Shown here: piece by piece, positions 1,384-37,358 of the stretch
Position numbering within the stretch: the first letter of the stretch is position 1
Layout: each line of letters starts with the position of its first letter
Assembly (NCBI GenBank): GCA_031269485.1
Contig: JAISZC010000150.1
Location: 1 to 42,558, forward strand
Length of the DNA: 42,558 nucleotides
DNA from: Deltaproteobacteria bacterium
GTDB lineage: Bacteria > Desulfobacterota > Desulfarculia > Adiutricales > Adiutricaceae
Reading direction: 5' to 3'
Notes under the pieces: generated by a model
The model's input: the letters and a program-made list of their open reading frames with translations, nothing else
The model's database searches: none
Told to the model about the DNA's origin: nothing
Position numbers and translations under genes: made by a program

Positions 1384-2418
1384 TCAGAGCGAGTAGGCGA
1401 AGCCGCGTCCGAAGCCGCAGATCGGAAAAACGCAGTCCCGACATTCCAGGCACAGTCCGCCGTGGCCCAGACCGCGCAGTTCGTGTCTGGTCAGCCTGCG
1501 GCCGGCCGCAATTCGGGGCAAAACCACGTCAAAAATGGTCCGTCGTCCGAACATCACGCAACCCGGCAGACCCAAAATAGGCACGTCCCCAAAATAGGCC
1601 GCCAAGAACATGGCGCCCGGCTGGACCGGCGCCCCGTAGACGACCAGTTCGGCCCCGGCGGCCTTGATGGCCCCGGGCGTGAGGTCGTCGGGGTCGACGC
1701 TCATGCCGCCCGTGCAGACGATCAGGTCCAGCCCTTGCGCGAGACAATCTTTGATGGCCGCGACAATGCGCCCGAGATTGTCGTCGCAGACGGCTTTGGA
1801 AACCGTCCGGATGCCGTACTCGGCCAGCTTGTCCTCGACCACGGGCGTGAACTGGTCCTGGATGCGGCCGTGAAAAATCTCGTTGCCGGTGGCCACCACC
1901 CCGGCCTTCAGCGGCCGATAGGGCGCGACGTCAAACAGCGGCCCCCCGGCCACCAGTTCCTCGACCTGGGCCAGCAGGCTTTTTTTTACGGCCAAGGGCA
2001 CGACCTTCAGGCCCGCCGCCGTCTGGCCACGGCTCACCGGAAAGCCGCTGTGCCGCGCGGCCAGGCTGAGCTCGTCAAAGCCGTTGACGGCCTCCAGCTT
2101 GGCCAAATCGACCAAAAAAAGCCCGTCGCGCGCCGCGGTCAAGACCGCCTTGCCCTCCTTGATCGGCGAGACAGCGAAGGCTTCGCCGCCGCAAATCCTG
2201 GCCAGGGCCTCGGCCGCCTCGTTTTCATGGGCCATGTCCTCGCCCAGATCCCAGACGTAGAGCCGATCCTTGCCCATGGAAAGCAGCACCTGCACGTCCT
2301 CGGGCCGCACGACGTGGCCTTTGCGGAAAGCCGTCTCCTTGACGTCATCTTTGACGATGCGGGTCAGATCGTGGCACAGCACGGCGCCAACCGCGGCCTC
2401 AGTGTCTATGGTCTTCAT
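1384..2418 (-). CDS. MoeA-like molybdopterin-binding protein with C-terminal Cys cluster
   Basis: Probably acts in late molybdenum cofactor handling: molybdenum insertion, or delivery to the aldehyde oxidoreductase. Of 344 residues, the second half carries a MoCF-binding domain ([16 protein letters not shown], then [17 protein letters not shown], then [12 protein letters not shown]). The C-terminus has an unusual cysteine group, [12 protein letters not shown], that could bind a metal or cluster. It is shorter than classical MoeA (about 400 residues), and the N-terminal half is not the standard MoeA domain set. The ATG at 2418 follows GGGGGAG at nine bases. The gene is divergent from mop across about 620 bases and leads a leftward unit with mogA. 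Proteins of this type often sit beside xanthine dehydrogenase-family genes, which supports a dedicated role. Confidence 0.8.
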
Positions 2419-3039: not shown

Positions 3040-5760
3040 ATGATTCAGAAGACCATTTACGTCAACGGCGTGGCCCACAACATTTTCGTCGACCAAGACG
3101 CGTCCTTGGCCAAGGTGCTGCGCGAGCAGCTGCATTTGCTGGGCACGAAGGTCGGTTGCGGCGAAGGTCAATGCGGCGCCTGCAACGTCATTCTCGACGG
3201 CAAGCTCGTCAAGTCGTGCGTCGTCAAGCTCAGCCGCGTGCCCAACGACGCCAAAATCTTGACCATCGAGGGCCTGGGCACGCCTCTGAACCTCCACCCC
3301 ATTCAAAAGGCCTGGATCAAGCACGGCGGAGCCCAATGCGGCTACTGCTCGCCTGGCTTCATCGTGTCCTCCAAGGCCCTGCTCGACGAAAACCCCAACC
3401 CCACCCGGGAGCAAGTCCGCGACTGGTTTCAGAAAAACCGCAACGCCTGCCGCTGCACCGGCTACATCCCGCTGGTCGACGCCGTCCTCGACGCGGCCAA
3501 GGTCTTGCGCGGCGAGGCGCCGCCCGAGTCGCTCGAATATCAGCTGCCGGCCGACGGGCACATCTGGGGCAGCGACTCGCGGTATCCCCGTCCCACGGCC
3601 ATCGCCAAGGTCACCGGCACCATCAAATACGGCGGCGACTTGAGCCTAGAGCTTCCGCCGAACCGTCTCTTCCTGGCCTTGGTTCAAGCCAAGGTCTCCC
3701 ATGCCAACATCAAGGGCCTCGACTATTCGGAAGCCGAAAAAATGCCCGGCGTGGTCAAGGTCGTCACCAGCAAGGACGTCAAGGGCAACAACCGCATCAA
3801 CGGGCTGGCCTTCCCCGCCAACAAGGGCGACGGCAAGGAGCGGCCCATCTTGTGCGACACGAAGGTCTTCCAGTATGGCGACGCCATCGCCGTGGTGGCG
3901 GCCGCCACCGAAGCCGAGGCCAAGGCCGCGGCCGCGGCCGTCAAGGTCGACCTCGAGGTCCTGCCGGCCTACCTCTCCGCTCCGGCGGCCAAAGACCCGG
4001 ACGCGATCGAGATCCACCCCGGCACGCCCAACGTGTATTTCGTCCAGAAGCTGGTCAAGGGCGCCGACACCGCCCCGACCTTCAGCCGGCCCGACGTGGT
4101 CACGGCCGAAGATCACATCGTCACCAGCCGCACTCCGCACATGCCCTTGGAGCCCGACTGCGCCTTCGGCTTCCTCCACGACGACGGCAGCCTGATCGTC
4201 CACTCCAAGTCCATCGGCGTCCATCTTCACAAGGCCATGATCCAGGAAGGCCTGGGCTTGGCCGACGACAAGCTCCAGCTGGTCGCCAACCCCATGGGCG
4301 GCACCTTCGGCTACAAGTTCAGCCCGACCAACGAGGCCATTGTCGGCGCCGCGGTGCTGGCCACCGGCCGCCCCTGCTGCCTGCTGTTCGATTATCATCA
4401 GCAGATGCAGTACACCGGCAAGCGCTCGCCCTTCCACGGCACGTTGCGCCTGGCCGCCGACAAGAGCGGCAAAATCTTGGCCATGGAAACCGACTACGAC
4501 GTCGATCACGGCCCCTACTGCGAGTTCGGCGATCTCTTGACGCTCCGCGGCGTCCAGTTCATGGGCGCGGCCTACGACATCGCCGACATCCGGGGCGAGG
4601 GCCGCACGGTCTGCACCAACCACGCCTGGGGCTCGGCTTTCCGCGGGTACGGGGGCACGCAGGCCCAGCTCATCTCCGAGATCGTCGTAGACGAGCTGGC
4701 CGAAAAGCTCGGCATGGACCCGTGGGAGCTGCGCCACAAAAACGTGCTGCGTCCAGGGGGCACCAATCCCAACGGACAGACCCCCGACTCCTACTCCTAC
4801 GTCGAAATGCTGGAGGCCGTCAAGCCCAAGTACGACGAGGCCCTCAAGAAAGCCAAGGCCGAATCGACCGACACGCACAAAAAAGGCGTGGGTCTCAGCT
4901 GCGGCTCCTACGGCTGCGGCCTTGACGGTCCCGACTCCTCCAACGCCTACGCCGAGCTCCACGCCGACGGGACCATCACCATCTGCACCGCCTGGGAGGA
5001 TCACGGCCAAGGGGCCGACATGGGGGCCATCGGCACCGCCCACCAGACTCTCAGGCCCATGAAGGTGGCCCCGGAGCGGCTCAAGTTCACCTGGGCCGAC
5101 ACCCGCAACCCGGTCTCCGGCCCGGCCGGCGGCTCTCGCTCCCAGGTCATGACCGGCGGCGCCGTCAAGGCGGCCTGCGAAAACCTGCTCGAAGGGCTCA
5201 AGAAACCCGACGGCGGCTTTTTGACGTACGACGAGGCCGTGGCCGCAGGCAAGCCCGTCAAGTACGACGGCACCTTTTCCGTGCCGGGCGTGCCGCTGGA
5301 CGAAAACGGCCAGGGCAAGCCCTTCATGGTCTACATGTACGGCGTCTGCCTGGCCGAGGTCACCGTCGAGAAGGCCACCGGCAAGACCAAGGTCGACAAG
5401 ATCACCTTCATGATCGACATCGGCAAGCTCAACAACCGCCTCGTGGTCGACGGCCAGCTCTGGGGCGGCGTGGCCCAAGCCATCGGCTTGGCCCTCTCGG
5501 AGGACTTTGAGGACATCCAAAAGCACCGGACCATGATCGGCGGCGGCTTTCCGTACATCAAGGACATCCCCGACAACATCGAGCTGCATTATTTTGAAAA
5601 CCCGCGGGAGTTTGGACCCCATGGCGCCGCCGGCGTCGGCGAGATCCCGCTGTGCGTCCCGCACCCGGCCATCCTCAACGCCATCTACAACGCCGTCGGG
5701 GCCCGAGTGACCCGCATCCCGGCCTTGCCGGAACGGGTGCTGGAGGCCATGCCCAAGTAA
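3040..5760 (+). CDS. mop: Molybdenum aldehyde oxidoreductase (MOP type)
   Basis: Xanthine oxidase-family enzyme that oxidises aldehydes to carboxylates with water, passing electrons through two [2Fe-2S] clusters from a molybdopterin cytosine dinucleotide centre. The 906 residues match the 907 of D. gigas MOP. Cysteines 40, 45, 48 and 60 form the plant-type cluster and 100, 103, 137 and 139 the second, the same numbers as in D. gigas. The GVGEIPL motif places the catalytic glutamate at 868. RGYGG, GPAGGSR and the absence of a FAD domain also fit. The ATG at 3040 follows AAGGAG by seven bases and gives the exact family N-terminus MIQK; the open frame upstream is not conserved. It has its own terminator downstream and lies amid cofactor-assembly genes. 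The physiological aldehyde is unknown. Confidence 0.97.
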   Translation: MIQKTIYVNGVAHNIFVDQDASLAKVLREQLHLLGTKVGCGEGQCGACNVILDGKLVKSCVVKLSRVPNDAKILTIEGLGTPLNLHPIQKAWIKHGGAQCGYCSPGFIVSSKALLDENPNPTREQVRDWFQKNRNACRCTGYIPLVDAVLDAAKVLRGEAPPESLEYQLPADGHIWGSDSRYPRPTAIAKVTGTIKYGGDLSLELPPNRLFLALVQAKVSHANIKGLDYSEAEKMPGVVKVVTSKDVKGNNRINGLAFPANKGDGKERPILCDTKVFQYGDAIAVVAAATEAEAKAAAAAVKVDLEVLPAYLSAPAAKDPDAIEIHPGTPNVYFVQKLVKGADTAPTFSRPDVVTAEDHIVTSRTPHMPLEPDCAFGFLHDDGSLIVHSKSIGVHLHKAMIQEGLGLADDKLQLVANPMGGTFGYKFSPTNEAIVGAAVLATGRPCCLLFDYHQQMQYTGKRSPFHGTLRLAADKSGKILAMETDYDVDHGPYCEFGDLLTLRGVQFMGAAYDIADIRGEGRTVCTNHAWGSAFRGYGGTQAQLISEIVVDELAEKLGMDPWELRHKNVLRPGGTNPNGQTPDSYSYVEMLEAVKPKYDEALKKAKAESTDTHKKGVGLSCGSYGCGLDGPDSSNAYAELHADGTITICTAWEDHGQGADMGAIGTAHQTLRPMKVAPERLKFTWADTRNPVSGPAGGSRSQVMTGGAVKAACENLLEGLKKPDGGFLTYDEAVAAGKPVKYDGTFSVPGVPLDENGQGKPFMVYMYGVCLAEVTVEKATGKTKVDKITFMIDIGKLNNRLVVDGQLWGGVAQAIGLALSEDFEDIQKHRTMIGGGFPYIKDIPDNIELHYFENPREFGPHGAAGVGEIPLCVPHPAILNAIYNAVGARVTRIPALPERVLEAMPK

Positions 5761-5887: not shown

Positions 5888-6807
5888 CGCCGCCGTGGCC
5901 AACTTCAGCGGCCCCGCGGGCGAAGCGGTTTGACGAATCGGCGCCAAATCGCCTCCGCAGAAGGGTTTTCCGGCGTGGGCGCCGCGGCTTCAAATTCCGA
6001 CGCGGGGCTATTTCGTGCTACAATTCGGCCTGAAGACGACCGCCTCCGACCGCGCCGGCCGCTTGTTCCAGGCCGCCGTATGCGCTTAAGCGGACGATCG
6101 CGGACGGAGCCAGCGGTCAAGGCCGCGGGCGGGGTCTGACAGCCGATCGCTCGCCAGAAGGGAGACCTCGCCCGGGCCAAGCGGGAAAAGCGGCGAACGT
6201 GGCGACGGCGTCCTGCTGTGGACGCCAGATTTTAGGGACTCTTGAAGGCGTTTGGAACGTATTTTGGCAGACTGGCGGCTCGCTACATGCGGATCGGCCG
6301 TTATTAGTCCAGAGCGACGACTCCTTAAAAAACAGCCGTCTAACAAAGCAGCTATATTTTTATATTATATCTATGACAACAATTTAAATACGATTCACGC
6401 TTAAATATAAAACAGCAACTAGATAATAATGTTTAATATAAAATACTAATATCTTCAGGGTCAGCTATTTTAAAATAATTAGAAAAAAAATAATCATTTA
6501 AATGTTGATAAAACGAATTTTGTTTATAATTTAATATCTTACGGGCTCGACGCAAGCTGGACCGGACCGGCGACGGCGCCCAAGGCCTGGCTGAACGCTC
6601 GGCCCTGGCGCGCCCCAAGCAGAAAGCCTTTGTCTGACGCCGGCGGGCCTCTGCCGACCAAAAAATCATGGGCGCGAATGGTCTTTGCCGGGCGCCGTCC
6701 GCTTCGCTCGGCGGCGCGGTCGGCCGCTGGAGGTTCGCGCCCTCCGAAGGCGCCCCCGACCGCTCGGTCCGCGGACCGCCGCGCCCGTCAGCGTCCTCAA
6801 GGCCTCC
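5888..6807. other. Long intergenic region without a recognised gene
   Basis: Open frames in the GC-rich part (5900-6300) resemble nothing known and have no ribosome sites. Bases 6320-6540 are strongly AT-rich and are a likely promoter region for the downstream operon, but no well-spaced promoter could be fixed. The open frame of the next gene extends back to 6685 with an arginine-rich leader that I regard as untranslated. Confidence 0.5.
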
Positions 6808-9222
6808 ATGGAACATTCGACACTGGCAGCCTTCGAAAACCTGTGCGCCCAAGACCAGCCCCCCGCCTGCCAAGGCGCCTGCCCGACGCAGCTCGAGGCC
6901 GGCAGGCTGGCCGACTTGGCGGCCGCCGGCCAGTTCGCCGAGGCCCGCAAGATCCTCGAGCGCCACCTGCCCGCGCCCGCGCTGTCGGCTCGCTTGTGCG
7001 AAGGTCCTTGCCGCGTCAAATGCCTCCGAGCCGGCCTCGACGAGCCCGTCGATCTGCCTTTGCTGGAACGTTTCATCGCCGACCACAGCCGGCCCGGCCG
7101 GGTCTTTCCGCTGCCCAAGACGGGCCATCGGGCGGCGTTGCTGGGCTCGGGCCTGTCGTCTCTGGGCCTCGCCCACGAGCTGGCCAAAAAGGGCCACCAG
7201 GCCGAAATCGTCCATGCGACGCCTTTGGGCGGTTGGCTGGCCGAGCTTGGGCCGGCGGACGGCCCGGCAAGCCGGCCTTTCGCCGGACCCGCAGCTTCGC
7301 CGGCGTCGACCGAGGCCTTGTCGCGGGCCCTGGCGGAGACCCTCGACCAGCTGCGGAGCCTCAAAGTCGCCTTCAGGTCCGTGGAGGCCTTCTCTCCCCA
7401 GCTGCTGGCCCAGCTCGAAGAAGAATTTGAGGGCGTCTTTTTGGGGCTCGACGACCCGTCCGTCACGGCCGCCGTCTTGGGCCTCCCTGAGCTCGACTCC
7501 GACCCGATCACCATGGGAGCGCTGCGGCCGCGCCTGTTCGCGGCCCGCCTCGATCCCGCGACGCCCTTCGCCTCGGCCATGTCCTCGGCCAAAAAGGCGG
7601 CCGGTTCCCTCGACCGGCTTTTTCAGGGCGTCAACCCCGCCACGGCCCGCGAACGCGAGGCGCTGACCGACTCGCGCCTGCCGGTCGATTTGTCCGACCG
7701 AGAGATTCGGCCCTTGAGGCCCCCGGCCGACCCAGCCCGACCCCAAGCCGCCGAGGTTCAAGCCGAGGCCGACCGCTGCTTGCGTTGCGCTTGCCTGAGG
7801 TGCCTGCCGCCCTGCCCGCTGTTGCGCAGCCGACGGGGGCATCCCAAAAAATACGCCCGGGAATTCTACAACAACATCATCACCGCCTTCGGCATCCGTC
7901 ACGCCAACTTGGCCATCAACAGCTGCGCGCAATGCGGCCTGTGCGGCCAAATCTGCCCCAACGGCTTCGACTTGGGCCAATTCGCGGCCTTGGCCCGCCT
8001 GGACATGACCGCCGCCAGCCACATGCCCGTTTCGGCCCACGAATTCGCCTTGGAGGACCTCACGTCGGCCAACTCGCCGGCCGTCGCCTTCGCGCGGCCC
8101 CAGCCCGGCGGAAGCGAAAAATGCCGCCGGCTGCTCTTCGCCGGCTGCCAGCTGCCGGCCGCGGCCCCCGAGGCGGTCGAGGGCCTCTACGCGCACCTTT
8201 GCCGCCATCTCGACGGAGGCGTGGGGCTGATGTTCGCCTGCTGCGGCGCCCCGGCCGGCTGGGCCGGCCGGCCGGGGCTGACCGGCCGGACGGTCGAGGC
8301 CCTGCGCCGCGCCTGGGCGGCTTTGGGCTCGCCGGAAATCGTCGCGACCTGCCCCTCGTGCCTGTCTTTTTTTCGGCAGGAAATGCCCGAAGCGACGTCC
8401 GTCTCGCTGTGGACGGTTTTGGAGGCTCTCCCGACGCCGGCCGGCGCCCAGGCCTTGGACGCCCCGATGATCCTCCACGATCCGTGCTCGGCCCGCCTCG
8501 ACGAGCCCAGCCAGAACGCCGTACGCAGCCTGCTGGCTCGCCTGGGCCAAAGCTTCCGCGAGCCGCGCTTCGCCCGTCGCCTGACGCTGTGCTGCGGATA
8601 CGGCGGACTGGCCGATCAGGCCAACCCTGCTTTGGGCCGGGAATACGCCCTCCAGCGCCTCGCCGACGGCCCGGAGCCTCTGCTGGTCTGGTGCGTGATG
8701 TGCCGCGACCGCTTTCGCCGGACGGGGCGGGCTTCGCTTCATGCGCTGGATCTTTTGTGGCCCCGCAAGCCGCCCTCCGAGGCGCTCGCCGATCCTCCCC
8801 AAGGTCTGTCGGCCCGCCGCGAGGCCCGTCTAACCTTCCGACGCCGAATGCTCGCCGAACTGTGGGGCGAGACGCCCGACCAAACCCCTCAGGAGCCTGA
8901 AATGACCGTCAAGCTCGACATCCCCGGCTCGGTCCTCGAAGACCTCGAGTCCCGACGCATCCTGACCTCCGACGTGCTGGCGGTGCTGGAAAACGCCGCC
9001 CTAAACGGCCCGACCTTCGTCAATCCCGAGACCGGCCGTCGTCTGGCCTGCCTGCGGCCGCGCCAGGTGACCTTTTGGGTCGAATACGAGGTCCGCCCCG
9101 ACGGCGCCTGCCTTGTCCACCGCGCCTGGTCCCATCGCATGACCGTCCCGGGCGTTCAGGGCCGGGGCGAAGAGAGCCCCGCCAGCCTCGAGGGCTTCGC
9201 CCGGCAGGGCGGCCGGGTCTGA
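6808..9222 (+). CDS. Multidomain Fe-S oxidoreductase (pyridine nucleotide-disulfide oxidoreductase/dicluster-binding type, DVU_1558-like)
   Basis: Predicted cytoplasmic electron-transfer hub of the aldehyde-oxidoreductase locus; 804 residues. Order of parts: a GltD-type N-terminal cysteine domain (C13, C21, C25, then C64, C68, C72); a short nucleotide-binding fold with GSGLSSLG at 113-120; a ferredoxin-like pair of clusters (C324, C327, C329, C332, C336 and C373, C376, C379, C383); then two HdrD/GlpC-like cysteine-rich CCG modules (C478-C479 with CPSC, and C595-C596 with WCVMC). A further C-terminal domain of about 105 residues begins near 8901. The FAD/NADPH part is much shorter than in GltD, so flavin binding is uncertain. 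The start at ATG 6808 gives the family-like N-terminus, though only a weak AAGG precedes it. It overlaps the next gene by one base (TGATG). The family name is from memory of NCBI naming. Confidence 0.85.
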   Translation: MEHSTLAAFENLCAQDQPPACQGACPTQLEAGRLADLAAAGQFAEARKILERHLPAPALSARLCEGPCRVKCLRAGLDEPVDLPLLERFIADHSRPGRVFPLPKTGHRAALLGSGLSSLGLAHELAKKGHQAEIVHATPLGGWLAELGPADGPASRPFAGPAASPASTEALSRALAETLDQLRSLKVAFRSVEAFSPQLLAQLEEEFEGVFLGLDDPSVTAAVLGLPELDSDPITMGALRPRLFAARLDPATPFASAMSSAKKAAGSLDRLFQGVNPATAREREALTDSRLPVDLSDREIRPLRPPADPARPQAAEVQAEADRCLRCACLRCLPPCPLLRSRRGHPKKYAREFYNNIITAFGIRHANLAINSCAQCGLCGQICPNGFDLGQFAALARLDMTAASHMPVSAHEFALEDLTSANSPAVAFARPQPGGSEKCRRLLFAGCQLPAAAPEAVEGLYAHLCRHLDGGVGLMFACCGAPAGWAGRPGLTGRTVEALRRAWAALGSPEIVATCPSCLSFFRQEMPEATSVSLWTVLEALPTPAGAQALDAPMILHDPCSARLDEPSQNAVRSLLARLGQSFREPRFARRLTLCCGYGGLADQANPALGREYALQRLADGPEPLLVWCVMCRDRFRRTGRASLHALDLLWPRKPPSEALADPPQGLSARREARLTFRRRMLAELWGETPDQTPQEPEMTVKLDIPGSVLEDLESRRILTSDVLAVLENAALNGPTFVNPETGRRLACLRPRQVTFWVEYEVRPDGACLVHRAWSHRMTVPGVQGRGEESPASLEGFARQGGRV

Positions 9223-9434
9223 TGGCCCACGTCTTCGTCAGACCCGGCGGCGAGGGTTGGGTCTGCCCCAAATGCTCCCGGCCCTTGGGGCCGGTTTCGG
9301 TCAACGTCGAGTACATGGGGGCCAGCTTCATGGTGGAGTTGCCCGGTTGCCAAAGCTGCGGCAAAGTTTTGGTGGACGACGAGCTGGCCTTGGGCAAGAT
9401 GCTCGAGGTGGAAAAGCTGCTGGAGGACAAATGA
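9222..9434 (+). CDS. Small Cys4 redox/zinc-ribbon protein (DVU_1557-like)
   Basis: A 70-residue cytoplasmic protein with two CxxC pairs, C15/C18 and C43/C46, arranged like a rubredoxin or zinc ribbon. It could bind one iron or zinc and serve as a small electron carrier for the neighbouring Fe-S enzyme. The start codon overlaps the upstream stop (TGATG) and its own stop overlaps the next start (ATGA), so the three genes are translationally coupled. No other domain is present. The assignment to the DVU_1557 redox family rests on position and the cysteine pattern. Confidence 0.8.
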   Translation: MAHVFVRPGGEGWVCPKCSRPLGPVSVNVEYMGASFMVELPGCQSCGKVLVDDELALGKMLEVEKLLEDK

Positions 9435-10351
9435 GCTCAAGGCCTCAGCCAGGCCCGGCCAAGTCCGCCGGCCCGACCGCCCCAGGACCTGTGACCCGAC
9501 CGGCCGCCGCGTCAGGGCGCCCCGCGCCGACCCAAACGGCCCGGCCAGCCGATCCCGACGCCTTGACCGCGCTCCTCGGTCCGGCTTGGCGGCCCGGCGG
9601 CCTGACGCTGACACGCGAAACGCTCGCCGCCTGCGGCTTCGAGCCAGGGGCCAGGATCGTCGACGTGGCCTGCGGCCACGGAGCCACCTTGGGACTTTTG
9701 GCCGAGCTGGGCTTTGAGGCTCATGGGCTGGATCTCAACCCCGCCGCCGCCGCGCAGGCCCAAGCCGCCGCCGGACGACCGGCGTCGGCTGGCGACATGG
9801 CCGCCCTGCCCTGGCCCTCGAACTGGGCGGACGGACTTTTTTGCGAGTGCGCGCTGAGTCTGGCCCGCGACCGGGCGGCGACCTTGGCCGAATTTCGCCG
9901 CGTGCTCAAGCCCGGCGGCCGGCTGGCGCTGAGCGATCTGGCCCTGCGCCAAACGCCGGCTTTGGCGCCAAATATGCCGCCGGGCTTGAGGCCGGGTCTG
10001 AAGGCTGATCCGGCGGCTGATTCGGCGCCTGATCAGTCGACGGGCCCAGCGGCCAAAAGAGCTCAAGCTTCCGCGCCGGCCGGCGGCTGGCTGACGGCCG
10101 AGGCTCTGAAGGCCGCGCTGGAGGCCGCCGGCTTCGAGGTCTTTCACTGGCAAGATCGCCTAAACGACCTGCGAAGCCTGGCCGGCCGGCTGCTGTGGCA
10201 CGGCGGCGGCGCCGACCTGCCGAGCCTTTTGGCCTGCCGCCCTGGCGGTTGCTCCGCCGGCCCGTCGGGCGGGCCAAGGGATTGCCCCCACGGCCAAGCC
10301 GGCCCGCCGCCGGCTTTGACTTATGTCGCCGCGGCCGCCCGCAAGCGATAG
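9431..10351 (+). CDS. SAM-dependent methyltransferase (DVU_1556-like)
   Basis: Class I methyltransferase of 306 residues. After a disordered, Pro/Ala-rich N-terminus of about 45 residues, the fold starts at VDVACGHGATLGLLAELGF (SAM-binding motif I), followed by the acidic LDLNP strand, an FCECALSL segment and the FRRVLKPGGRLALSDLAL strand typical of UbiE/Methyltransf_11 enzymes. A low-complexity insert follows the core. The substrate is unknown. The start overlaps the preceding stop by four bases (ATGA). Methyltransferases paired with the TrsS radical SAM protein have been called TrsM; I infer this is that partner from the gene order, not from a diagnostic residue. Confidence 0.85.
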   Translation: MSSRPQPGPAKSAGPTAPGPVTRPAAASGRPAPTQTARPADPDALTALLGPAWRPGGLTLTRETLAACGFEPGARIVDVACGHGATLGLLAELGFEAHGLDLNPAAAAQAQAAAGRPASAGDMAALPWPSNWADGLFCECALSLARDRAATLAEFRRVLKPGGRLALSDLALRQTPALAPNMPPGLRPGLKADPAADSAPDQSTGPAAKRAQASAPAGGWLTAEALKAALEAAGFEVFHWQDRLNDLRSLAGRLLWHGGGADLPSLLACRPGGCSAGPSGGPRDCPHGQAGPPPALTYVAAAARKR

Positions 10352-10591: not shown

Positions 10592-11068
10592 ATGCTGGAC
10601 GACGCCAAGATGGAGGTGCTGGAACTGGCCGGACAGGGCTACACCTGCGCCCAGATTGTCGTGCTGATGGGCTTGCGCGTCATGGGCCGAGAAAACCCCG
10701 ATCTGATCAGGGCCATGAGCGGACTGGCCATGGGCGCGGCTTGCGGTTCGCTGTGCGGGGCCCTCACGGGCGGGCTTTGCCTCGTGGGGCTGCACACGGG
10801 CCAGGGGCGGCCTTTCGAGCGGCCCGTCCCCGGCGGCCGCATCCCTTTGGGGGCCTTGGTCAAGTGGTTCGTCGCCGAAGAACTCGGCGGGCGCGTCGAG
10901 CCGACCTGCCGGGCCATCTTTGAGAGCGCCGGCCAAAGCTACGACTTCGAGTCGGCCAATCCGGCGGCCGCCTGCGGCGATTTGGTGAGCCACGTCTGGG
11001 CCAAGGCCTTGGCTCTGGTGGCCGAGCACGGCCTGGATCCTTCGGCCGGCCGGGTGGATGACGAATGA
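10592..11068 (+). CDS. C_GCAxxG_C_C family protein (DVU_1555-like)
   Basis: A 158-residue protein of the C_GCAxxG_C_C family (PF09719), presumed to be a redox or metal-binding helical protein. The pattern is visible: C19 (YTCAQ), then C51 and C55 in GAACGSLCGALTGG, C63, and two later cysteines (PTCRAIF and AAACGDL). The ATG at 10592 is set by AAAGGAG six bases upstream. Its stop overlaps the start of the radical SAM gene (ATGA), tying the two. Family members are often placed next to oxidoreductases, and no enzymatic activity is established for them to my knowledge. Confidence 0.88.
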   Translation: MLDDAKMEVLELAGQGYTCAQIVVLMGLRVMGRENPDLIRAMSGLAMGAACGSLCGALTGGLCLVGLHTGQGRPFERPVPGGRIPLGALVKWFVAEELGGRVEPTCRAIFESAGQSYDFESANPAAACGDLVSHVWAKALALVAEHGLDPSAGRVDDE

Positions 11069-12666
11069 ACGGGGAAGCCGGCCGGAACGGCGACGCGGCT
11101 CCGGCGGCCTCGGACGCCCGTCCAGGCGACGGCTCGTCCCGCGCGACCGCCTCCGGCCCTCTTCCGGGCCGTTTGGCGGGCCGCACTGAAAGCCTGTGCC
11201 CAATCTGCCTCAAAGTTCTGCCGGCGACCCTCGAGATCGCGGGCGACGTGACGCTGCTGCGCCGGGTCTGCCCCGAGCACGGGCCATTCGACGAGGCCGT
11301 CTGGCGCGGCCTGCCCTCTTTCGAGAGCTGGAAACGGCCCAAAAAGCCCGCCGCGGGCGTGGCCGTCCACCGGCCGGCCGAGCGCGGCTGCCCCCACGAC
11401 TGCGGACTGTGCCCCGAGCACGCTCAGCGGCCCTGCACCATCCTGCTGGAGCTGACCCAAGCCTGCAACTTGGGCTGTCCCGTCTGCTACGCGGCCAGCC
11501 CGAAGGCGACGTCGGCCGGCCTTCACGTTCCGCTGGACGACCTTTTGGCCCAGCTGCCCTACATCAAGCGGCAAGCCGGCCGGGTGGTCCTGCAGCTCTC
11601 CGGCGGCGAACCCACGCTGCACCCGGATCTGCCGGCCGTCGCCGCGGCCGCGGCCCGACTTTTTCCGGCCGTCCAGCTCAACACCAATGGCTTGGAACTG
11701 GCCGCCCGACCATCTTTGGCGCGGGAACTGGCGGCGGTCGGCCTGACGTGGGTTTTTTTGCAGTTCGACAGCCTCCGCGACGAAGTTTATCAGGCCATCC
11801 GCGGCCGACCGTTGACGTCCCAAAAGCTGGCCGCCGTCGAGGCCTGCCGCGCGGCGGGCCTGCCGACCATCCTCACCCCCACGGTGGTCAAGGGCCTCAA
11901 CGACGACGAGCTGGGCGATCTGGTCCGCTACGCGACGGCCCAGCCCCTGGTCCGCGGCCTTCATTTCCAGCCCATGACCGCTTCGGGCCGCACGCCCTTC
12001 GCCGGCTCGGCCGGCCGCTTGACGCTCCCCGAACTGCTCCAGGCCTTGGCCCGGCAGACCGACGGCCAAGTCGACCCGGCGGAGGCCTTTCCGCCGGGCT
12101 GCGAGCACGAGCGCTGCTCGTTTCATCTGAGATATCGACGGCTGGCCGACGGACGGCTCGTTCCGCGGCCCGGCGCCGCCCCGGGCTGCTGCTCGCCCGA
12201 CAAGTTCGGCCCGACCGCCTCGGAAGCGCAAGACGGCGACGCCGGCCTGGAACGGGCCGTGGACATCATTTTGCGCAGCTGGGGCCCGCTGGGCGCCAGC
12301 CCGCGCAGCGGGACGGCCGCTTCCGGCGGCCACGAAGGCCCCCAAGCCTCCGCCGGCCCGAGCGGCCAAAGCGGCCTGCTCTTGCCCATGGCCCCGCCGC
12401 GGCCGCTGGACGCCTTCGACGAGTTTTTGGCCCAGGCGGCTCGCGAGACCTTCAGTCTGACGGCCATGGCCTTTCAGGACGCCTGGACGGCCGACCTGGC
12501 CCGCTTCCGCGGCTGCTGCGTCCACGTCTTCGATCCGCCCGACCGTTTCGTGCCTTTTTGCGCCATGAACCTGACCTCGGCGGACGGCCAACCCCTCCAC
12601 CGCCGGCCGCCGCGCCTCGCCGACGCCCAAGCCGCCCCAACCGCGGGCGGGGCTGTTCGGCGCTGA
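11065..12666 (+). CDS. trsS: Radical SAM protein, TrsS-like (DVU_1554-like)
   Basis: Radical SAM enzyme of 533 residues that should cleave SAM with a [4Fe-4S] cluster bound by C134, C138 and C141 (CNLGCPVC). SGGEP follows as the SAM-binding motif. Upstream are a zinc-ribbon-like CPIC (C45, C48) with CPEH (C69) and a second cysteine group (C109, C113, C116, C124). The C-terminus has GCCVHVF (C484, C485) and VPFCAMNL (C499). This layout resembles the family of archaeal MJ0619 and tetraether synthase Tes, which join or methylate unactivated carbons. NCBI describes TrsS as a radical SAM (seleno)protein; here every candidate position is cysteine and no UGA interrupts the frame. The region between 410 and 445 is low complexity. 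Substrate unknown. The single UGA stop lies in frame with the next gene. Confidence 0.85.
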   Translation: MNGEAGRNGDAAPAASDARPGDGSSRATASGPLPGRLAGRTESLCPICLKVLPATLEIAGDVTLLRRVCPEHGPFDEAVWRGLPSFESWKRPKKPAAGVAVHRPAERGCPHDCGLCPEHAQRPCTILLELTQACNLGCPVCYAASPKATSAGLHVPLDDLLAQLPYIKRQAGRVVLQLSGGEPTLHPDLPAVAAAAARLFPAVQLNTNGLELAARPSLARELAAVGLTWVFLQFDSLRDEVYQAIRGRPLTSQKLAAVEACRAAGLPTILTPTVVKGLNDDELGDLVRYATAQPLVRGLHFQPMTASGRTPFAGSAGRLTLPELLQALARQTDGQVDPAEAFPPGCEHERCSFHLRYRRLADGRLVPRPGAAPGCCSPDKFGPTASEAQDGDAGLERAVDIILRSWGPLGASPRSGTAASGGHEGPQASAGPSGQSGLLLPMAPPRPLDAFDEFLAQAARETFSLTAMAFQDAWTADLARFRGCCVHVFDPPDRFVPFCAMNLTSADGQPLHRRPPRLADAQAAPTAGGAVRR

Positions 12667-12675
12667 GGGCTGGCC

Positions 12676-14205
12676 ATGGCCAACGCTGCCCCCGATCCCT
12701 TGCGGCCGGCCTGTCGCCTCCTAGGGGCCCGACCAGCCTCGGGCGCGGCGGCCGCCGTCGCGCTGGCCAATCGCCTCGACGAGTTGCTGGCGCTCGAGCT
12801 TCCCGGCCCGGCGCCCTTGAACCTGCGCCTGGCCGAAGCCAGAACGCTCCGCTTGGCCGGCTCGCTGGAGCTGGCCGCCCGCGAGTCGGCTCGCTGCCGC
12901 CGGACGCCCGGGCCGGGCGCCCTGCTGGCCGCCGCCGCCGAACTGCGCGCGGGCCTGACCGGACGGACGGCCGAGCTGCCGACCGACGAGCTGGCAGCCC
13001 GCCCCAAGTCCGTCGACCGCGCCAGCCGCTCGGCCGACCTTTTGGAGGCCCGGCTAGCCGCCACGCTCGCCCGTTTGCCCTTCACCTGGCCCGAAGAGCT
13101 GGCCGAGGCCCCGGAAGCCTTTTTGTGCGTGAGCCAAGACGAGGTCGAGGCGCTGACCTCCATCCCCACCTCCGGCAGCCAAGGGCGCCTCAAGCGCGTC
13201 TTTTCGTCGGCCGAGGATCTCGAAGGGGTAGTCAGCTTTTTTCAGTTCGGCATGCGCCACCTCGTCGAGCCGGGCCGCGATCGCCCGGCCCTGCTGATGA
13301 ACGGCGGACGGCCCGGCACGGTGGGCTGGCTACTGGAAAAAGCCCTGGCCCGCTGGGACGTCCCGCTGCTAATCGCCGGCTTTTTGGACTTCGCCCGCCT
13401 CGACGCCGTCGCCGCCGAGCTCGCAGAAGCCCGCGTCACCTGCCTGGTGGGTCTGCCCTGGCAGCTGCTGGCTCTGGCCCGCGGCGCGGTCAGCCGGCGG
13501 CCAGCCGCCCTCCAAACGGTCCTGCTCAGCGGCGAGGCGGCGCCCCAAGCCCTCAAGCAGGCCTTGACCGACGAGTGGGGCGCGGAGGTCTTCGTCCACT
13601 ACGGCTTGACGGAGTTCGGACTGGGCGGCGCGGTGGAATGCCGCTGCCACGGAGGCCCGCACCTGCGGGAAGCCGACCTGGCCGTGGAGATCGTCGATGC
13701 GGACGGGCGCGCGCTGCCGCCGGGCCAGGCGGGCGAAATCGTCGTCACTTCGCTTTCTCGCCGGGCCATGCCGCTTTTGCGCTATCGGACAGGCGATTTG
13801 GGCCTCATGGCCCCGGACGCCTGCCCTTGCGGCTCGGTCATGAGACGGCTGCGCCCCTTGGGCCGGCTGGCCGACCGGCTGACCTTGCCGGACGGCCGCC
13901 TGACCTCGCTGACCGAGCTGGGCGAGCTCCTGCCGCCCTTCGCCGCCGGCTGCCGCCTCGGCTGGCGCCCTTCCCCGCCGTTGCTGCGCGCGGCCTTCGC
14001 CGTCCGACCGGGGACCGGCCCGGCGAACCGCCCGTCAGGCGGACCGTCAGCCGCGGAAGCCCGTCGGCTGCGTCAAGATTTTTTGGCTTTTTTGGGCCCC
14101 GGAGTCGAGCTTGAGCTGGTCTTCGAGGAACTGGCCCAGCGCCCGGGCAGTTTGGGCGCCAAAAACGTCTTGGCCGCCCTCGGCCCGGCGCCGGCGGAAA
14201 GGTGA
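12676..14205 (+). CDS. AMP-dependent acyl-CoA ligase, PaaK-like (DVU_1553-like)
   Basis: Adenylate-forming enzyme expected to activate a carboxylic acid with ATP and CoA; 509 residues. The P-loop-like TSGSQGRLKR begins at T165, HYGLTEFGLGG is the A5 motif, YRTGDLG the A7 motif and LGRLADRL the A8 hinge. The last residues (GAKNVLA) could supply the A10 lysine. It most resembles phenylacetate-CoA ligases, but with a different, alanine-rich N-terminus of about 140 residues. The gene starts nine bases after the TrsS stop with only a weak GAGGG site, so coupling to TrsS translation is likely. With mop in the locus, a natural guess is that it activates the acid made from the aldehyde, but the substrate is not readable from sequence. 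Confidence 0.85.
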   Translation: MANAAPDPLRPACRLLGARPASGAAAAVALANRLDELLALELPGPAPLNLRLAEARTLRLAGSLELAARESARCRRTPGPGALLAAAAELRAGLTGRTAELPTDELAARPKSVDRASRSADLLEARLAATLARLPFTWPEELAEAPEAFLCVSQDEVEALTSIPTSGSQGRLKRVFSSAEDLEGVVSFFQFGMRHLVEPGRDRPALLMNGGRPGTVGWLLEKALARWDVPLLIAGFLDFARLDAVAAELAEARVTCLVGLPWQLLALARGAVSRRPAALQTVLLSGEAAPQALKQALTDEWGAEVFVHYGLTEFGLGGAVECRCHGGPHLREADLAVEIVDADGRALPPGQAGEIVVTSLSRRAMPLLRYRTGDLGLMAPDACPCGSVMRRLRPLGRLADRLTLPDGRLTSLTELGELLPPFAAGCRLGWRPSPPLLRAAFAVRPGTGPANRPSGGPSAAEARRLRQDFLAFLGPGVELELVFEELAQRPGSLGAKNVLAALGPAPAER

Positions 14206-14340: not shown

Positions 14341-15216
14341 TCAGACTCGCTCGATCACGGCCGCGGACCCCAAAGGCACGTCGATGCTCAAGACCTCCAA
14401 GAGAGGCCAGCCCCGCTCCTGGGCCAGGATAACCCGATTGACGGCCTGATGGGCCGTCACCAGAGCCGCTTCGCCGTCCCCCAGCCGTCGGACGATTTTT
14501 TCCCAGGCCGGCAGGACTCTGGCCGCCACCTGAGCAAAATTCTCGCCGCCCGGCGGCGCCGCATGGACCAAATCCCGGCCCCGAGCGGCCCACAGCTCCG
14601 GCCAGTCCGCCAGGACGCGCCGCTTGGTCAAGCCTTCCCAGTCGCCTAGAGAGATTTCGACGAAGTCGGGCTCAATCTCAGGCTCGAAGGCCTCCTCGGA
14701 CTCGCAGGCGCCCTTGGGCTCAAAGGCGTCGCGCGCCGCCGCGTCGGACTCGCCAAAAACGCTCGCGTCTCCTTTGGCGAGCGGCGAACCGACGCCTTGA
14801 ACCTCGCTTTGCCGGGCCTCGCCTTTCTCGGAGACGCCGGGCGCCGTCTCCTGGCGCCCGGAGGTCGAGGCAGCGCGGACCGCGAGGCCCGTCTCGCGAC
14901 GCCGGCCCGCCCCTCCGAACAGGAGGATCTCCGCGGTCTGCCGAGCCCGAAGCAAGGGGCTGGTGCAAGCCAGCCTCAGCGGACGGCCGCCCAAAAGGTT
15001 CGGCAGCTCGACCCGCAAGGCTTCTATCTGCGCCCGTCCTTCGGCGGTCAAAGGCGGATCGAGCCGGCCGAGCAGCTCGCCGCGGACGGCGGCCTGGCCA
15101 TGCCGCACCAAGACGATTCTTTTGGCGGCTCGGTGCACGGCCGTCCGGCGGCTTTCGGCCTCGCTCGAGGCCCAGCCCGCCAGCGCCGTCCCGGCCGCGC
15201 CAAGGGCCGGCTTCAC
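14341..15216 (-). CDS. Histidine phosphatase family protein with acidic insert
   Basis: Phosphoglycerate mutase-like phosphatase of 291 residues. RIVLVRHGQ carries the phospho-accepting H39 with its RHG motif, ISLGDWEGL is the usual middle motif, and VTAHQAVNR supplies the second catalytic histidine. Such enzymes include cobalamin phosphatase CobC. Between the halves there is an insert of roughly 75 residues rich in Glu, Ala and Ser, probably disordered. The GTG start at 15216 overlaps the upstream stop (GTGA), so it is co-translated with the NTP transferase. A later start nearer residue 30 is possible because the first 30 residues look unconserved. The substrate in this locus is unknown. Confidence 0.8.
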   Translation of the reverse strand: MKPALGAAGTALAGWASSEAESRRTAVHRAAKRIVLVRHGQAAVRGELLGRLDPPLTAEGRAQIEALRVELPNLLGGRPLRLACTSPLLRARQTAEILLFGGAGRRRETGLAVRAASTSGRQETAPGVSEKGEARQSEVQGVGSPLAKGDASVFGESDAAARDAFEPKGACESEEAFEPEIEPDFVEISLGDWEGLTKRRVLADWPELWAARGRDLVHAAPPGGENFAQVAARVLPAWEKIVRRLGDGEAALVTAHQAVNRVILAQERGWPLLEVLSIDVPLGSAAVIERV

Positions 15217-16583
15217 GGCCGCGCCAAGGGCGGATCGCGATCAAGCCCGGCCGAACGGCCAAAGCTGCGAAGCACGTCGACCAGCCCCAGCAAGGCCGAC
15301 TCCCACGGCCGGCCGGTCGAGGCGGCGGCGACGGCCGCCGGCTCGGCGCCGAGGCGCCGACGAAACCAGTCCTCGACGGCCACGGCCGCCGCCCGCCGTC
15401 TGGCCACGGAGGCCAGAGCCTCGGCGCTGTCGTCCCAGGCCGCGTAGGACGGGGCAAAACGCTCGTCGAGGCCGACGACGGTCGAGCCCTTGACGTATTT
15501 GTCGGCCAAGTGGACGGCCAAGGCGGCTTCGACGGTCGCCGCCGGCCGGTCGCGAAAAAATTCCTGATGAGGCCGCTCGGCCCCGGGTCCCGACCAGCCC
15601 ACGACGGAATAAAAGGCCGTCGGCAGCTCGGTGTGGGCCCCGACCACGGCCGCCAGCTCCGGCCAGCCCAGGGCCAGCAGCCGCTCTTTGACCCGCTGGT
15701 CGTGCCTGGCGCGGCCATGATCGAGGTCGTGGCACAGCCCGCCGACCAACGCCAGCTCCGGATCCTGGGCCCCGGCGGCCTCGGCCAGCCGCCGGGCCAA
15801 AAGACCCACGGTCAGGGCGTGGACTTTTTTGGCCTCGGCGGGCCCCGCCAAGGCCAGCAGCGTCAGGGCGGCCCGCCAACCAGGCGAGGGCGACGCCGGC
15901 CGGGGCCGGGCCAGCAGCCGCTCAAGCTCCTGAGGGTCGTCGGCGTCGCTGAGAACGAACTCGTCGGGCAGGTCCAAAAAGTCCAAAACCGGACCGTCAG
16001 CGGCTGGCGCGCTCTTGGGCCGGCGGCCCGCCAAAAACTCCGCGCGGGCCTCGGGCGTGGCGGCCAGCGACCCCAAGGCGCCCCGCAAGCCGCCCGGGCC
16101 GGACCAGGCGGCCAAGGTCCGAAAAAGGCGGGACCCGACCAAAGGCGGATGCCCGGTCAAGCCGTCGAAGGCCGGCGTCAAGACGCGGCCGCGGGCCAGC
16201 GGGCCGGCCTGCAGCCAAGCGGCGGCCAGCGACAGCAGCGAGGCGGGCCGCGCCAAAGCCGCATCCACCGGGAGGATGAAGGCCCCGTCGAGGTCGGTCC
16301 CCACGGCCCTCAAGCCTGTTTGGACGGAAGAAAACATGCCCCGATCGTAGTCGGGGTTTTTGACCGGCCTGATCCCCAGGGCCCTGGCCTCGGCCATCGT
16401 CTCCTCGGCCCGGTGGCCCGTCACCGCCGTCACGCGGGTCAGCCCGACCAAGGCCAGCGACCTGGCGGCCAGAGCCATGAGCCCCGGCCCGGCCGGCGGC
16501 GACAGGGCCTTGTGGGCCGGCGCGAACCGCGTGGAGCGGCCGGCGGCCAAAATCAGCGTTTCAAGCTGGAGGGCGAGCGGCAT
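15213..16583 (-). CDS. MocA-like NTP transferase fused to an HD domain (DVU_1551-like)
   Basis: Likely transfers CMP from CTP to molybdopterin to make the cytosine dinucleotide cofactor that MOP-type enzymes need. Residues 1-200 are MobA/MocA-like: LAAGRSTRF at 12-20, K25, an FILPVD metal site, and GLTGHPPLV, where GHP is typical of MocA. After a linker, the second half is an HD-superfamily phosphohydrolase with an upstream histidine (KKVHALTVG) and CHDLDHG, then HTELP and a later DKYVKG. The ATG at 16583 has GAGG about seven bases before it; the open frame continues 75 codons upstream without conserved features. The HD domain could hydrolyse a nucleotide by-product. It forms an operon with the histidine phosphatase and is divergent from xdhC. 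Confidence 0.82.
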   Translation of the reverse strand: MPLALQLETLILAAGRSTRFAPAHKALSPPAGPGLMALAARSLALVGLTRVTAVTGHRAEETMAEARALGIRPVKNPDYDRGMFSSVQTGLRAVGTDLDGAFILPVDAALARPASLLSLAAAWLQAGPLARGRVLTPAFDGLTGHPPLVGSRLFRTLAAWSGPGGLRGALGSLAATPEARAEFLAGRRPKSAPAADGPVLDFLDLPDEFVLSDADDPQELERLLARPRPASPSPGWRAALTLLALAGPAEAKKVHALTVGLLARRLAEAAGAQDPELALVGGLCHDLDHGRARHDQRVKERLLALGWPELAAVVGAHTELPTAFYSVVGWSGPGAERPHQEFFRDRPAATVEAALAVHLADKYVKGSTVVGLDERFAPSYAAWDDSAEALASVARRRAAAVAVEDWFRRRLGAEPAAVAAASTGRPWESALLGLVDVLRSFGRSAGLDRDPPLARP

Positions 16584-16963
16584 TTTTCGCCTCAAACGGC
16601 CGCGGCGGCCCTGTCCGGACAGCCGGCGCGCCTTTGACGGCCTGCGGAGGGACGGCACCAAAAAAGGCGCCGAAAAGCTGGCCGAAATCCGGGCCGAAAA
16701 CGGGCGGCGCTCGCCACGGCTCAGGACAGTTTCAGGACAGTCTCGAACGCCGGCCCCGGCCTCTGGCGCTTTTTCGGAATCATAGCCGGACGACCGGCCG
16801 GCGGTCAAGCGCCGCCGCCCCTCCGACGCCCGTCCTAGAACGCGCTTTGACGAGACCGATGCCGGTGGCCTTTACGCTTCTATCTCCGGCAATAATTATA
16901 TCTTATATCTTTGTTAAACTATTATTTTATTAAATCAAATATCAGTTTAGTTCGGAGAACCGC
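16584..16963. other. Divergent intergenic region between the NTP transferase and xdhC
   Basis: Bases 16870-16950 are AT-rich. A perfect -10 hexamer TATAAT reads leftward at 16895-16900, but no -35 at proper spacing was seen. The xdhC ribosome site GGAG lies at 16954-16957. Co-regulation of the two maturation genes from this gap is plausible. Confidence 0.45.
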
Positions 16964-17977
16964 ATGTCCACCATCTTCCAAGGCCTCCACCAAGCCCTGC
17001 TCCGCGGCGAGGAAGCGATCCTGGTCACCGCTTACGAGCGCGAAGGCCCGCGGCGGACTCTTCACCTCGGCGCCGCTCTGGCGGCCTTCGAGGGCCGGCC
17101 CGAAGCCGCCGCGACTCCGCGTTTGGAAAAAAACGGCGAGCTCGTCACCCTCGTCGAGCTCTTTCGGCCCAAGCCCCGGCTCGTCATCTTCGGCGGCGGC
17201 CACGTGACCTTGGCCCTGGCCCCCTTGGCCGCGACCTTGGGCTACCGGACCGTCATCTACGACGATCGCCCCACCTTCAGCAATCCGTTCCGCTTTCCCC
17301 AGGCCGCCGCGACCATCTGCGACTCCTTCGAGGCCATCGGCCGCCATGTGGAGCTCAGGCCCGGCGATTTGGCGGTCATCGTCACTCGGGGGCACCGGCA
17401 CGATCTCGAATGCCTCGACTTCGTCATGGCCGGACCGGAGCCTTTCTACGTCGGGCTCATCGGCTCTCGGCGGCGCATCGCCGTCATCCGCAAGGGCCTG
17501 GCGGCCCGCGGGCTCGATCTCGGACGCCTGGAGCGTCTGCACGCGCCCATCGGGCTTGACATCGGCGCGGTCACCCCCGAGGAGATCGCCTTGGCCATCA
17601 TGGCCGAGATCGTCCAAGTCAAACGCGCCTCCGAGCGCGAGCGCGGCTTGGGCCGCCAGGAGATTTACGCCGACCTGGAGCTGACCGCCTGGCTGGCTCA
17701 GCCGCCCCCCGCGGAAGGCGCGGCGCTGATCACCGTGACCGCCACCTCCGGGTCGACCCCGCGCAAGGCCGGGGCCAAGATGGCCGCCCTTTTCGACGGG
17801 CGGGCCGTCGGCAGCATCGGCGGCGGCTGCGCCGAGGCCGGCGCGCTGGCCGCCGCCCGGGAGATCATCGGCTCAGGGCGTCACGAAATCAAAACCGTCG
17901 ATTTGACCGACTCGGCCGAGGAGGACGGCATGGTCTGCGGCGGACGCATGGAGCTGCTGCTGGAGGACTTGGACTGA
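16964..17977 (+). CDS. XdhC-family aldehyde oxidoreductase maturation factor
   Basis: XdhC proteins bind molybdenum cofactor, promote its sulfuration and hand it to xanthine dehydrogenase-family enzymes; here the client is presumably MOP. The protein has 337 residues. An N-terminal segment of about 65 residues is followed by the Rossmann domain of XdhC (FGGGH at 76-80, YDDRPTFSNPFRF, GLIGSRRR, and HAPIGLDIGAVTPEEIA). The XdhC_CoxI domain, usually N-terminal, is at the C-terminus (TATSGSTPRKAGAKM, then GSIGGGCAEA, ending with EEDGMVCGG). The order is therefore reversed relative to standard XdhC. A ribosome site GGAG is six bases before the ATG. It stands alone on its strand, divergent from the MocA-like gene. 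Confidence 0.92.
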   Translation: MSTIFQGLHQALLRGEEAILVTAYEREGPRRTLHLGAALAAFEGRPEAAATPRLEKNGELVTLVELFRPKPRLVIFGGGHVTLALAPLAATLGYRTVIYDDRPTFSNPFRFPQAAATICDSFEAIGRHVELRPGDLAVIVTRGHRHDLECLDFVMAGPEPFYVGLIGSRRRIAVIRKGLAARGLDLGRLERLHAPIGLDIGAVTPEEIALAIMAEIVQVKRASERERGLGRQEIYADLELTAWLAQPPPAEGAALITVTATSGSTPRKAGAKMAALFDGRAVGSIGGGCAEAGALAAAREIIGSGRHEIKTVDLTDSAEEDGMVCGGRMELLLEDLD

Positions 17978-21450: not shown

Positions 21451-21741
21451 ATGGAAACTGTTTTGACTTTTCAAAGCGCCGCCCAGGCCCTCAACGGAGA
21501 GCAGGCCCTGGCGGCCGCCGGATTCAAGGTCGGGCTGATGGCCCGGCCCACGGCGCTGGGTTCGGAATGCGGCTTTTGCCTTCGACTGGCGGCCGCCGAC
21601 TTGGCGCGGGCCCTGGCGACGCTCCAAGCCGCCGGCCTCGCGTGGGAAGGAGTTTTCGTCAATGAAGCCCAAGCCGGCCAAAAAGCCCGCTACCGCCCGT
21701 TCGACGGCCACGCGGCCCCCCAAGAAGGCCAAGACGCCTGA
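21451..21741 (+). CDS. DUF3343 putative Se/S carrier-like protein
   Basis: A 96-residue protein of the DUF3343 family, described in Pfam as putative Se/S carrier-like. It shows the family pattern LTFQSAAQALNGEQAL followed by a proline-bearing segment and SECGFCLRL. The conserved SxCG cysteine is present, and a second cysteine three residues later makes a CGFC pair. No strong ribosome site precedes the ATG at 21451. Its last 80 bases overlap the start of the MobA-SelA gene in another frame, so the C-terminal tail after the domain may be dispensable. Placement directly before selA supports delivery of selenium to the selenocysteine pathway, though this role is not shown for the family. Confidence 0.82.
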   Translation: METVLTFQSAAQALNGEQALAAAGFKVGLMARPTALGSECGFCLRLAAADLARALATLQAAGLAWEGVFVNEAQAGQKARYRPFDGHAAPQEGQDA

Positions 21742-37261: not shown

Positions 37262-37358
37262 GGGAATATATGGGTTCTGGTGTGCCCCCTGGTCTTCAAA
37301 ACCTGTGCTGGCGGCTAATCCCCGCCTAGGTGGGTTCGATTCCCACATATTCCCGCCA
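37262..37358 (+). tRNA. selC: Selenocysteine tRNA (anticodon UCA)
   Basis: A 97-base tRNA with all marks of bacterial tRNA-Sec: an 8-bp acceptor stem (GGGAATAT with ATATTCCC), discriminator G and an encoded CCA, a 5-bp T stem (GTGGG / CCCAC around TTCGATT), a long variable arm (GGCGG / CCGCC), and anticodon TCA at 37296-37298 in the loop CTTCAAA. The anticodon stem has one T-T mismatch. It reads UGA as selenocysteine together with SelA, SelB and SelD; only SelA is in this window. Confidence 0.97.

Follow-up and report, generated by a model that had tools for sequence, protein, structure and literature searches.

The trsS operon in the window

The window analysed here is the whole 42,558-nucleotide stretch of a Deltaproteobacteria contig (JAISZC010000150.1). 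It contains trsS, which encodes a Tes-like radical SAM protein, surrounded by an operon of the DVU_1551–1559 type plus the gene for MOP, a molybdopterin-dependent aldehyde oxidoreductase (Table 1), as is the case for the TrsS family. The ATG of trsS overlaps the stop codon of the upstream C-GCAxxG-C-C gene.

Table 1. Genes of the window and ligand residues of its TrsS protein, with positions in the window
Feature	Position	Strand	Evidence and remarks
Molybdopterin-binding-domain protein	1384..2418	-	TIGR00177 domain, E 4.4e-18
MOP, molybdopterin-dependent aldehyde oxidoreductase	3052..5760 (start approximate; frame open from 2872)	+	NF045668, 1507 bits; PDB matches 1SIJ and 1DGJ, both with a reported E of 0
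Pyridine nucleotide-disulfide oxidoreductase/dicluster protein	6685..9222 (start uncertain)	+	NF045663, 732 bits
DVU_1557-family small redox protein, ending ...EVEKLLEDK	9222..9434	+	NF045645, 91.8 bits; tail conservation
DVU_1556-family methyltransferase	9431..10351 (start inferred from ORF)	+	NF045667, 180 bits
DVU_1555-family C-GCAxxG-C-C protein	10592..11068 (start inferred from ORF)	+	NF045669, 119 bits
trsS, Tes-like radical SAM protein, 533 aa	11065..12666	+	NCBIfam NF045646, 484.9 bits, E 1.7e-145
Rubredoxin-like Cys3His site C45, C48, C69, H72 (CPIC..CPEH; Tes C9, C12, C33, H36)	11197..11280	+	65/65 TrsS; PF23545
N-terminal auxiliary [4Fe-4S] ligands C109, C113, C116, H119 (Tes C73, C77, C80, H83)	11389..11421	+	64-65/65 TrsS
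C124, invariant in TrsS (Ile88 in Tes)	11434..11436	+	65/65 TrsS
Radical SAM [4Fe-4S] motif CNLGCPVC: C134, C138, C141 (Tes C98, C102, C105)	11464..11487	+	65/65 TrsS; PF04055
C351 (Tes C338)	12115..12117	+	65/65 TrsS; putative C-terminal cluster ligand, from Tes and conservation
TrsS-specific pair C375-C376	12187..12192	+	52-53/65 TrsS; region absent from Tes
C-terminal cluster segment: M468 (Tes labile Met439), C484, C499 (Tes C455, C470)	12466..12561	+	65/65 TrsS
DVU_1553-family AMP-dependent CoA-ligase-like protein	12676..14205	+	NF045666, 312 bits; fused to TrsS in L073
Histidine phosphatase, alpha-ribazole-phosphatase-like	14341..15216	-	PF00300, E 3.5e-36; TIGR03162, 109 bits (cut-off 163)
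DVU_1551-family MocA-like NTP transferase with HD domain	15213..16808 (start uncertain)	-	NF045665, 218 bits (cut-off 315); fused to TrsS in L063 and L077
XdhC-family maturation factor	16964..17977	+	NF045664, 249 bits (cut-off 350); Pfam XdhC_C, E 1.9e-40
selA fused behind a MobA-like NTP transferase domain, one 764-aa frame	21662..23956		
tRNA-Sec	37262..37358		

In the DVU_1557 family of small redox proteins, the last residue was Lys and the third-last Glu in all 63 sequences compared (the window and 62 loci from many phyla), the proteins ending in LEDK (rarely LEEK, LESK or MEDK) immediately before the stop codon. The tail is retained where a DVU_1557-type protein is fused to the dicluster protein (locus L101), and the C-terminal residues of the other nine operon proteins are variable. 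This invariance suggests a docking or modified C-terminus. The AlphaFold model of the protein had a pLDDT of 66 and was set aside. DVU_1557 was also considered as an obligate substrate of TrsS, which is disfavoured because its gene tracks the dicluster gene (61 shared occurrences, with one and three exceptions) more closely than it tracks trsS.

Identity and fold of TrsS

TrsS is already catalogued as NCBIfam family NF045646. The window protein scored 484.9 bits with this model (485.1 bits in the genome search), below the curated cut-off of 490; the shortfall of 5 bits is marginal, since full-length TrsS genes from the same family of genomes span approximately 474 to 593 bits. Tes was the runner-up NCBIfam family (NF045702, 258.9 bits), short of its own cut-off of 450. 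In the phylogenetic tree, the window protein grouped with those of loci L038 and L039 (support 100/99) within a TrsS clade of 65 rows (99/99), and Tes grouped with the protein of locus L139 (100/99) outside that clade. The Pfam HMPTM N-terminal zinc ribbon (PF23545) was also detected (E 6e-14). The window protein is a member of the TrsS family, despite its score just under the cut-off.

The solved structure best matched by sequence was Tes (PDB 7TOL, E 2.8e-68), and a 16-sequence profile aligned with 7TOL over profile positions 1–440 of 450 (E 1.5e-119). The AlphaFold model of the window protein had a mean pLDDT of 83 and a pTM of 0.85, with low-confidence Ala-, Gly- and Pro-rich stretches at residues 1–30 and approximately 417–442. 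Foldseek aligned this model with 7TOM over 527 columns (E 2.6e-35, TM 0.66/0.70), and the next unrelated match extended over approximately 220 columns (E 9e-12). TrsS is accordingly modelled with the Tes fold along its full length.

An earlier note on this DNA, made from the letters alone, had recognised a TrsS-like protein with the layout of Tes-type enzymes (CPIC..CPEH, a second Cys group, CxxxCxxC and CCVH..PFC). These motifs were all confirmed in the open reading frame at 11065–12666, and the identification and layout were borne out by the NF045646 score, a ligand-by-ligand alignment and the full-length fold match; the structure prediction and alignment with Tes that it had proposed as a check pointed to accessory metal sites common to both proteins. 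Its biochemical premise did not hold up. MJ0619 and tetraether synthase, presented there as two enzymes, are one protein (MJ0619, or Tes, or GDGT-MAS), and the assignment of MJ0619 as a pterin methylase could not be corroborated by the authors of the Tes study (PMC9433317). Our literature search found no paper on the function of TrsS; one selenoproteome review mentions it.

Metal sites and the segment preceding the labile methionine

The Tes sequence was taken from the profile alignment, and its numbering matches the residues given in PMC9433317 (C9, C12, C33, H36, C73, C77, C80, M439 and Y459). Counted over 65 aligned TrsS proteins, the columns aligning with all Tes ligands were conserved in at least 64. 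In the window protein, GCPHDCGLCPEH contains C109, C113, C116 and H119, and CCVH..PFC corresponds to C484, C485 and C499. Residues beyond the motifs noted earlier are C351 (in CEHERC), a probable ligand, M468 (in AMAFQD), the counterpart of the labile Met439 of Tes, and C124, an invariant residue of TrsS only. In Tes, C338, C455 and C470 are presumably the ligands of the C-terminal cluster.

At a conservation level of 95%, TrsS has 70 conserved columns; Tes carries the identical residue in 61 of them, and the other nine include (Tes to TrsS) A143 to S, A171 to N, I88 to C, N266 to H and M442 to Q. Tyr459, which is conserved in archaeal Tes yet dispensable there (PMC9433317), is not kept in TrsS; its counterpart is V488 in the window and Val in 43, Glu in 9, Ile in 6 and Ala in 4 of the 65 proteins. 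The segment from the first Cys of the C-terminal cluster to the labile Met is shorter in TrsS, with 20% Ile, Leu, Val, Met and Phe compared to 40% in Tes and a GRAVY of -0.43 versus +0.28. Judged from the sequence, with this presumed lipid-binding segment shorter and more polar, a lipid tunnel of the Tes type is unlikely in TrsS, and the substrate may be polar.

Cysteine sites and selenium

As stated in the earlier note, the sites of the window TrsS are all Cys, and the genome has tRNA-Sec and selA. What that note treated as an anomaly appears to be the usual state of TrsS: no convincing internal UGA was found in several hundred homologues (genome searches reading through stops) or at 79 of 80 trsS loci, and no Sec column was found among them. 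The one TGA flagged by the genome searches, in genome G515, was rejected as an ordinary stop, and another, at locus L057, is located within an inserted stretch. A Sec-containing TrsS is listed in PMC13188914, and we would guess at C375–C376 as a possible site in such a rare form.

Gene neighbourhood and fusions across trsS loci

We compared the genes within approximately 10 kb at 80 named trsS loci from phyla including Thermodesulfobacteriota, Myxococcota, Bacillota, Chloroflexota, Pseudomonadota, Synergistota, Actinomycetota, Acidobacteriota and Spirochaetota; many contigs end early, and counts are therefore lower bounds. Neighbours were the CoA-ligase-like protein (at least 68 loci), C-GCAxxG-C-C protein (at least 65), dicluster protein (at least 64), DVU_1557-family protein and methyltransferase (at least 62 each), MOP (at least 56) and the NTP transferase with HD domain (at least 42). 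A molybdopterin-binding-domain protein with an N-terminus similar to that in the window recurred at 19 of the 80 loci, and a cysteine-desulfurase-like gene family was present at nine, directly upstream of trsS in L059. Solitary TrsS genes at four loci (L062, L069, L072 and L086) count against a module for MOP.

TrsS was part of a single-frame fusion at three loci, as NTP transferase-HD–TrsS at L063 (Pleomorphomonas koreensis) and L077 and as TrsS–CoA-ligase-like protein at L073. Other single-frame fusions occurred at L060 (methyltransferase–ligase), L059 (ligase–phosphatase), L081 and L085 (both NTP transferase–phosphatase) and L101 (dicluster–DVU_1557-type protein). These fusions connect TrsS with the biosynthetic genes and link the redox proteins with one another. 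The trsS gene of C. ragsdalei has modA, a permease and ATPase of the molybdate/tungstate type (modABC-like) and modD nearby. At locus L067 (9968–12145), TrsS runs in frame into a region resembling MbdU, a metal-binding double selenoprotein (118 bits), and cobalt/nickel-transport-like genes were recognised by eye close by.

Co-occurrence of TrsS with MOP

Among 247 Desulfovibrionaceae genomes, 164 had MOP, 166 had TrsS and 155 had both (raw tallies that ignore shared ancestry). A looser search of the nine MOP-only genomes recovered TrsS in pieces in three (G826, G842 and G853), in one reading frame split by insertions, and found none in G775, G797, G864, G875, G920 and G928, which are less than 90% complete or in more than 800 contigs. 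The MOP-only genomes were rejected as proof that TrsS is dispensable, because TrsS is split in the first three and the other six are incomplete or fragmented. We also chose 16 genomes with a TrsS-family locus lacking MOP or lying in an incomplete or different cluster. A MOP-family protein was present in 13 of these, above the MOP cut-off in 11, although G469 is no test of unlinked co-occurrence since one of its MOP genes adjoins a TrsS gene. In the complete Desulfovibrionaceae genome G749, TrsS was present and no MOP-family protein was found, which counts against a MOP module; the TrsS-like pair of this genome sits with a DVU_1553-type ligase in another type of cluster, and branches separately outside the main clade.

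Desulfovibrio gigas MOP has been a model molybdoenzyme for approximately 40 years, and seemed fully explained by molybdopterin cytosine dinucleotide (MCD) and two [2Fe-2S] clusters. Over 512 aa, the MOP of genome G763 shows 100% identity to the crystallised D. gigas protein, and the same genome encodes an intact TrsS of 446 aa that keeps every ligand. Gene order is MOP, dicluster protein, DVU_1557-type protein, methyltransferase, C-GCAxxG-C-C protein, TrsS, ligase, XdhC and phosphatase; the sequence within reach of this operon yielded no NTP transferase gene, which again counts against a MOP module. D. gigas MOP, solved at 1.28 Å, is described with the ordinary pyranopterin (molybdopterin) cytosine dinucleotide (PMC10223205, PMC3877041). 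Given an intact trsS near mop and an ordinary MCD, a covalent change of the cofactor that is retained in mature MOP is unlikely, provided that trsS was expressed in the source cells. An unmodified MCD in MOP from a strain with active TrsS was the result that the earlier note had named as contrary to its idea, and under the same proviso D. gigas supplies it for mature MOP.

Related Tes-like subfamilies

Some matches that appeared to be early-ending TrsS genes were assigned elsewhere when read through. Those of L137 and L138 constitute a separate sister subfamily, which lies beside molybdopterin oxidoreductases of the DMSO-reductase family in L177, L178 and L179; in L177, MobB and a MOSC protein are encoded upstream. 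That of L139 is a bacterial Tes, grouping with MJ0619, from G073, an Acidobacteriota genome in which TrsS is likewise encoded, and that of L140 was rejected as a frame-broken copy. A more distant Tes-like branch (L036) occurs with ketoacyl synthase genes in L180 (G046:C42), and L181 (G013:C158) is similar; these clusters encode ketoacyl synthase, acyl carrier, ketoreductase-like and class V aminotransferase proteins, and recall lipid or polyketide assembly. At loci L149, L151 and L167, TrsS-like radical SAM genes occur in pairs, together with a gene for a PaaK-like ligase; the L149 cluster has an HGD-D-type protein and DUF5714, and that of L167 resembles it.

Proposed role of TrsS

We lean, with modest confidence, towards TrsS being a C–H-functionalising enzyme with the Tes fold that belongs to a cofactor module dedicated to MOP. 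The ligand set, operon, co-occurrence and fusions, and the fold given by the model, are computed results; we infer the chemistry by analogy with Tes, and likewise infer the polar substrate and the function of the module. TrsS would act as a radical SAM enzyme with four metal sites, in which the 5′-deoxyadenosyl radical derived from SAM abstracts hydrogen from a small polar substrate at an unactivated carbon. The substrate carbon radical would be captured at the C-terminal [4Fe-4S] cluster (C351, C484, C499 and the labile M468), and a C–C or C–S bond would then be made. Its partners would be the CoA-ligase-like protein, the methyltransferase, the phosphatase and the MocA-like protein with NTP transferase and HD domains, in a cofactor-forming module dedicated to MOP-type aldehyde oxidoreductases. 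The predicted product is either a transient intermediate in maturation of the MOP cofactor or a separate organic cofactor of the electron-transfer proteins of MOP, rather than a stable change of MCD in mature MOP. TrsS probably serves MOP by making or altering a small molecule. Alkylation of an unactivated carbon, as put forward in the earlier note, is a plausible candidate reaction, and sulfur insertion at the C-terminal cluster would also be compatible with the data.

A reading of low probability is that TrsS, the CoA-ligase-like protein and the methyltransferase constitute a metabolic pathway instead of a cofactor pathway, processing what MOP consumes or produces (an aldehyde oxidised to an acid and converted to acyl-CoA, with radical C–C bond formation to follow). 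MOP yields carboxylic acids, the neighbouring protein resembles PaaK, and TrsS-like proteins recur with a PaaK-like ligase in clusters without an adjoining MOP; however, neither the tight tracking of TrsS with MOP nor its fusion to a MocA-like NTP transferase would be predicted by a catabolic pathway. We regard as similarly improbable that TrsS inserts sulfur (or selenium) from its C-terminal cluster, in the manner of biotin and lipoyl synthases, into a substrate activated by the CoA-ligase-like protein, with the methyltransferase possibly capping the thiol, an alternative that partly overlaps with the reading we favour. The Tes intermediate contains a bond between the substrate carbon and a cluster sulfur, and the labile ligand has been likened to that of biotin synthase (PMC9433317); the cysteine-desulfurase-like genes described above fit such chemistry, but are missing from most loci.

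It is more doubtful that TrsS alkylates the molybdopterin (pterin) part of the MOP cofactor as a final, stable target, a pterin having been the target suggested in the earlier note. An operon rich in molybdenum-cofactor genes, the two fusions of TrsS to MocA-like NTP transferases and the DMSO-reductase-linked sister subfamily all argue for a pterin, and the fusions and sister subfamily keep the broader idea of a pterin target open. The part of that idea that fares poorly is a stable change in mature MOP, given the ordinary MCD of D. gigas despite its intact trsS and the pterin precedent of MJ0619 that was not reproduced. Coupling of lipid tails, as by Tes, is very improbable: the fold and ligands are the same and other bacterial members of the superfamily lie beside fatty-acid-synthase-like genes (L180 and L181), but the Tes model gives 259 bits against a cut-off of 450, Tes occupies a separate clade, the putative lipid-binding stretch is short and polar by comparison, Tyr459 is replaced by Val, Glu or Ile, and trsS is linked to MOP instead of lipid genes.

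A more tentative proposal, which we rate as possible but somewhat unlikely, places TrsS in the first radical SAM system to construct or edit a nucleotide-linked cofactor for molybdenum hydroxylases once molybdopterin has been synthesised. It could make a transient or labile edit of the molybdenum cofactor; alternatively, it could supply the partner proteins of MOP with a novel organic redox cofactor. Purified D. gigas MOP would have lost this product or never contained it. The co-occurrence of TrsS with MOP, the TrsS fusions, the sister subfamily linked to the DMSO-reductase family and the polar segment are new here. Across phyla, MOP is associated with a radical SAM enzyme of the Tes type, raising the question of why MOP would need carbon activation; if the proposal is true, Tes-type chemistry would reach beyond lipids.

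Comparison with known systems

Biotin and lipoyl synthases insert sulfur at an auxiliary cluster with one non-cysteine, labile ligand. TrsS is predicted to resemble both in having an auxiliary cluster of this kind, although neither enzyme was among the TrsS profile matches to solved structures. The likeness extends to Tes, the authors of which compared its labile cluster ligand to that of biotin synthase (PMC9433317). With the class D radical SAM methylases, under which MJ0619 was formerly annotated, TrsS shares a family name (the Pfam HMPTM zinc ribbon), but the founding pterin methylation of that class was not reproduced (PMC9433317). Tes itself (MJ0619; PDB 7TOL and 7TOM), among the closest known systems, has the four metal sites with the same ligand residues, the labile Met and the full-length fold in common with TrsS, and differs in forming a separate clade, in the low score of TrsS with its model and in the placement of TrsS genes in a molybdoenzyme operon.
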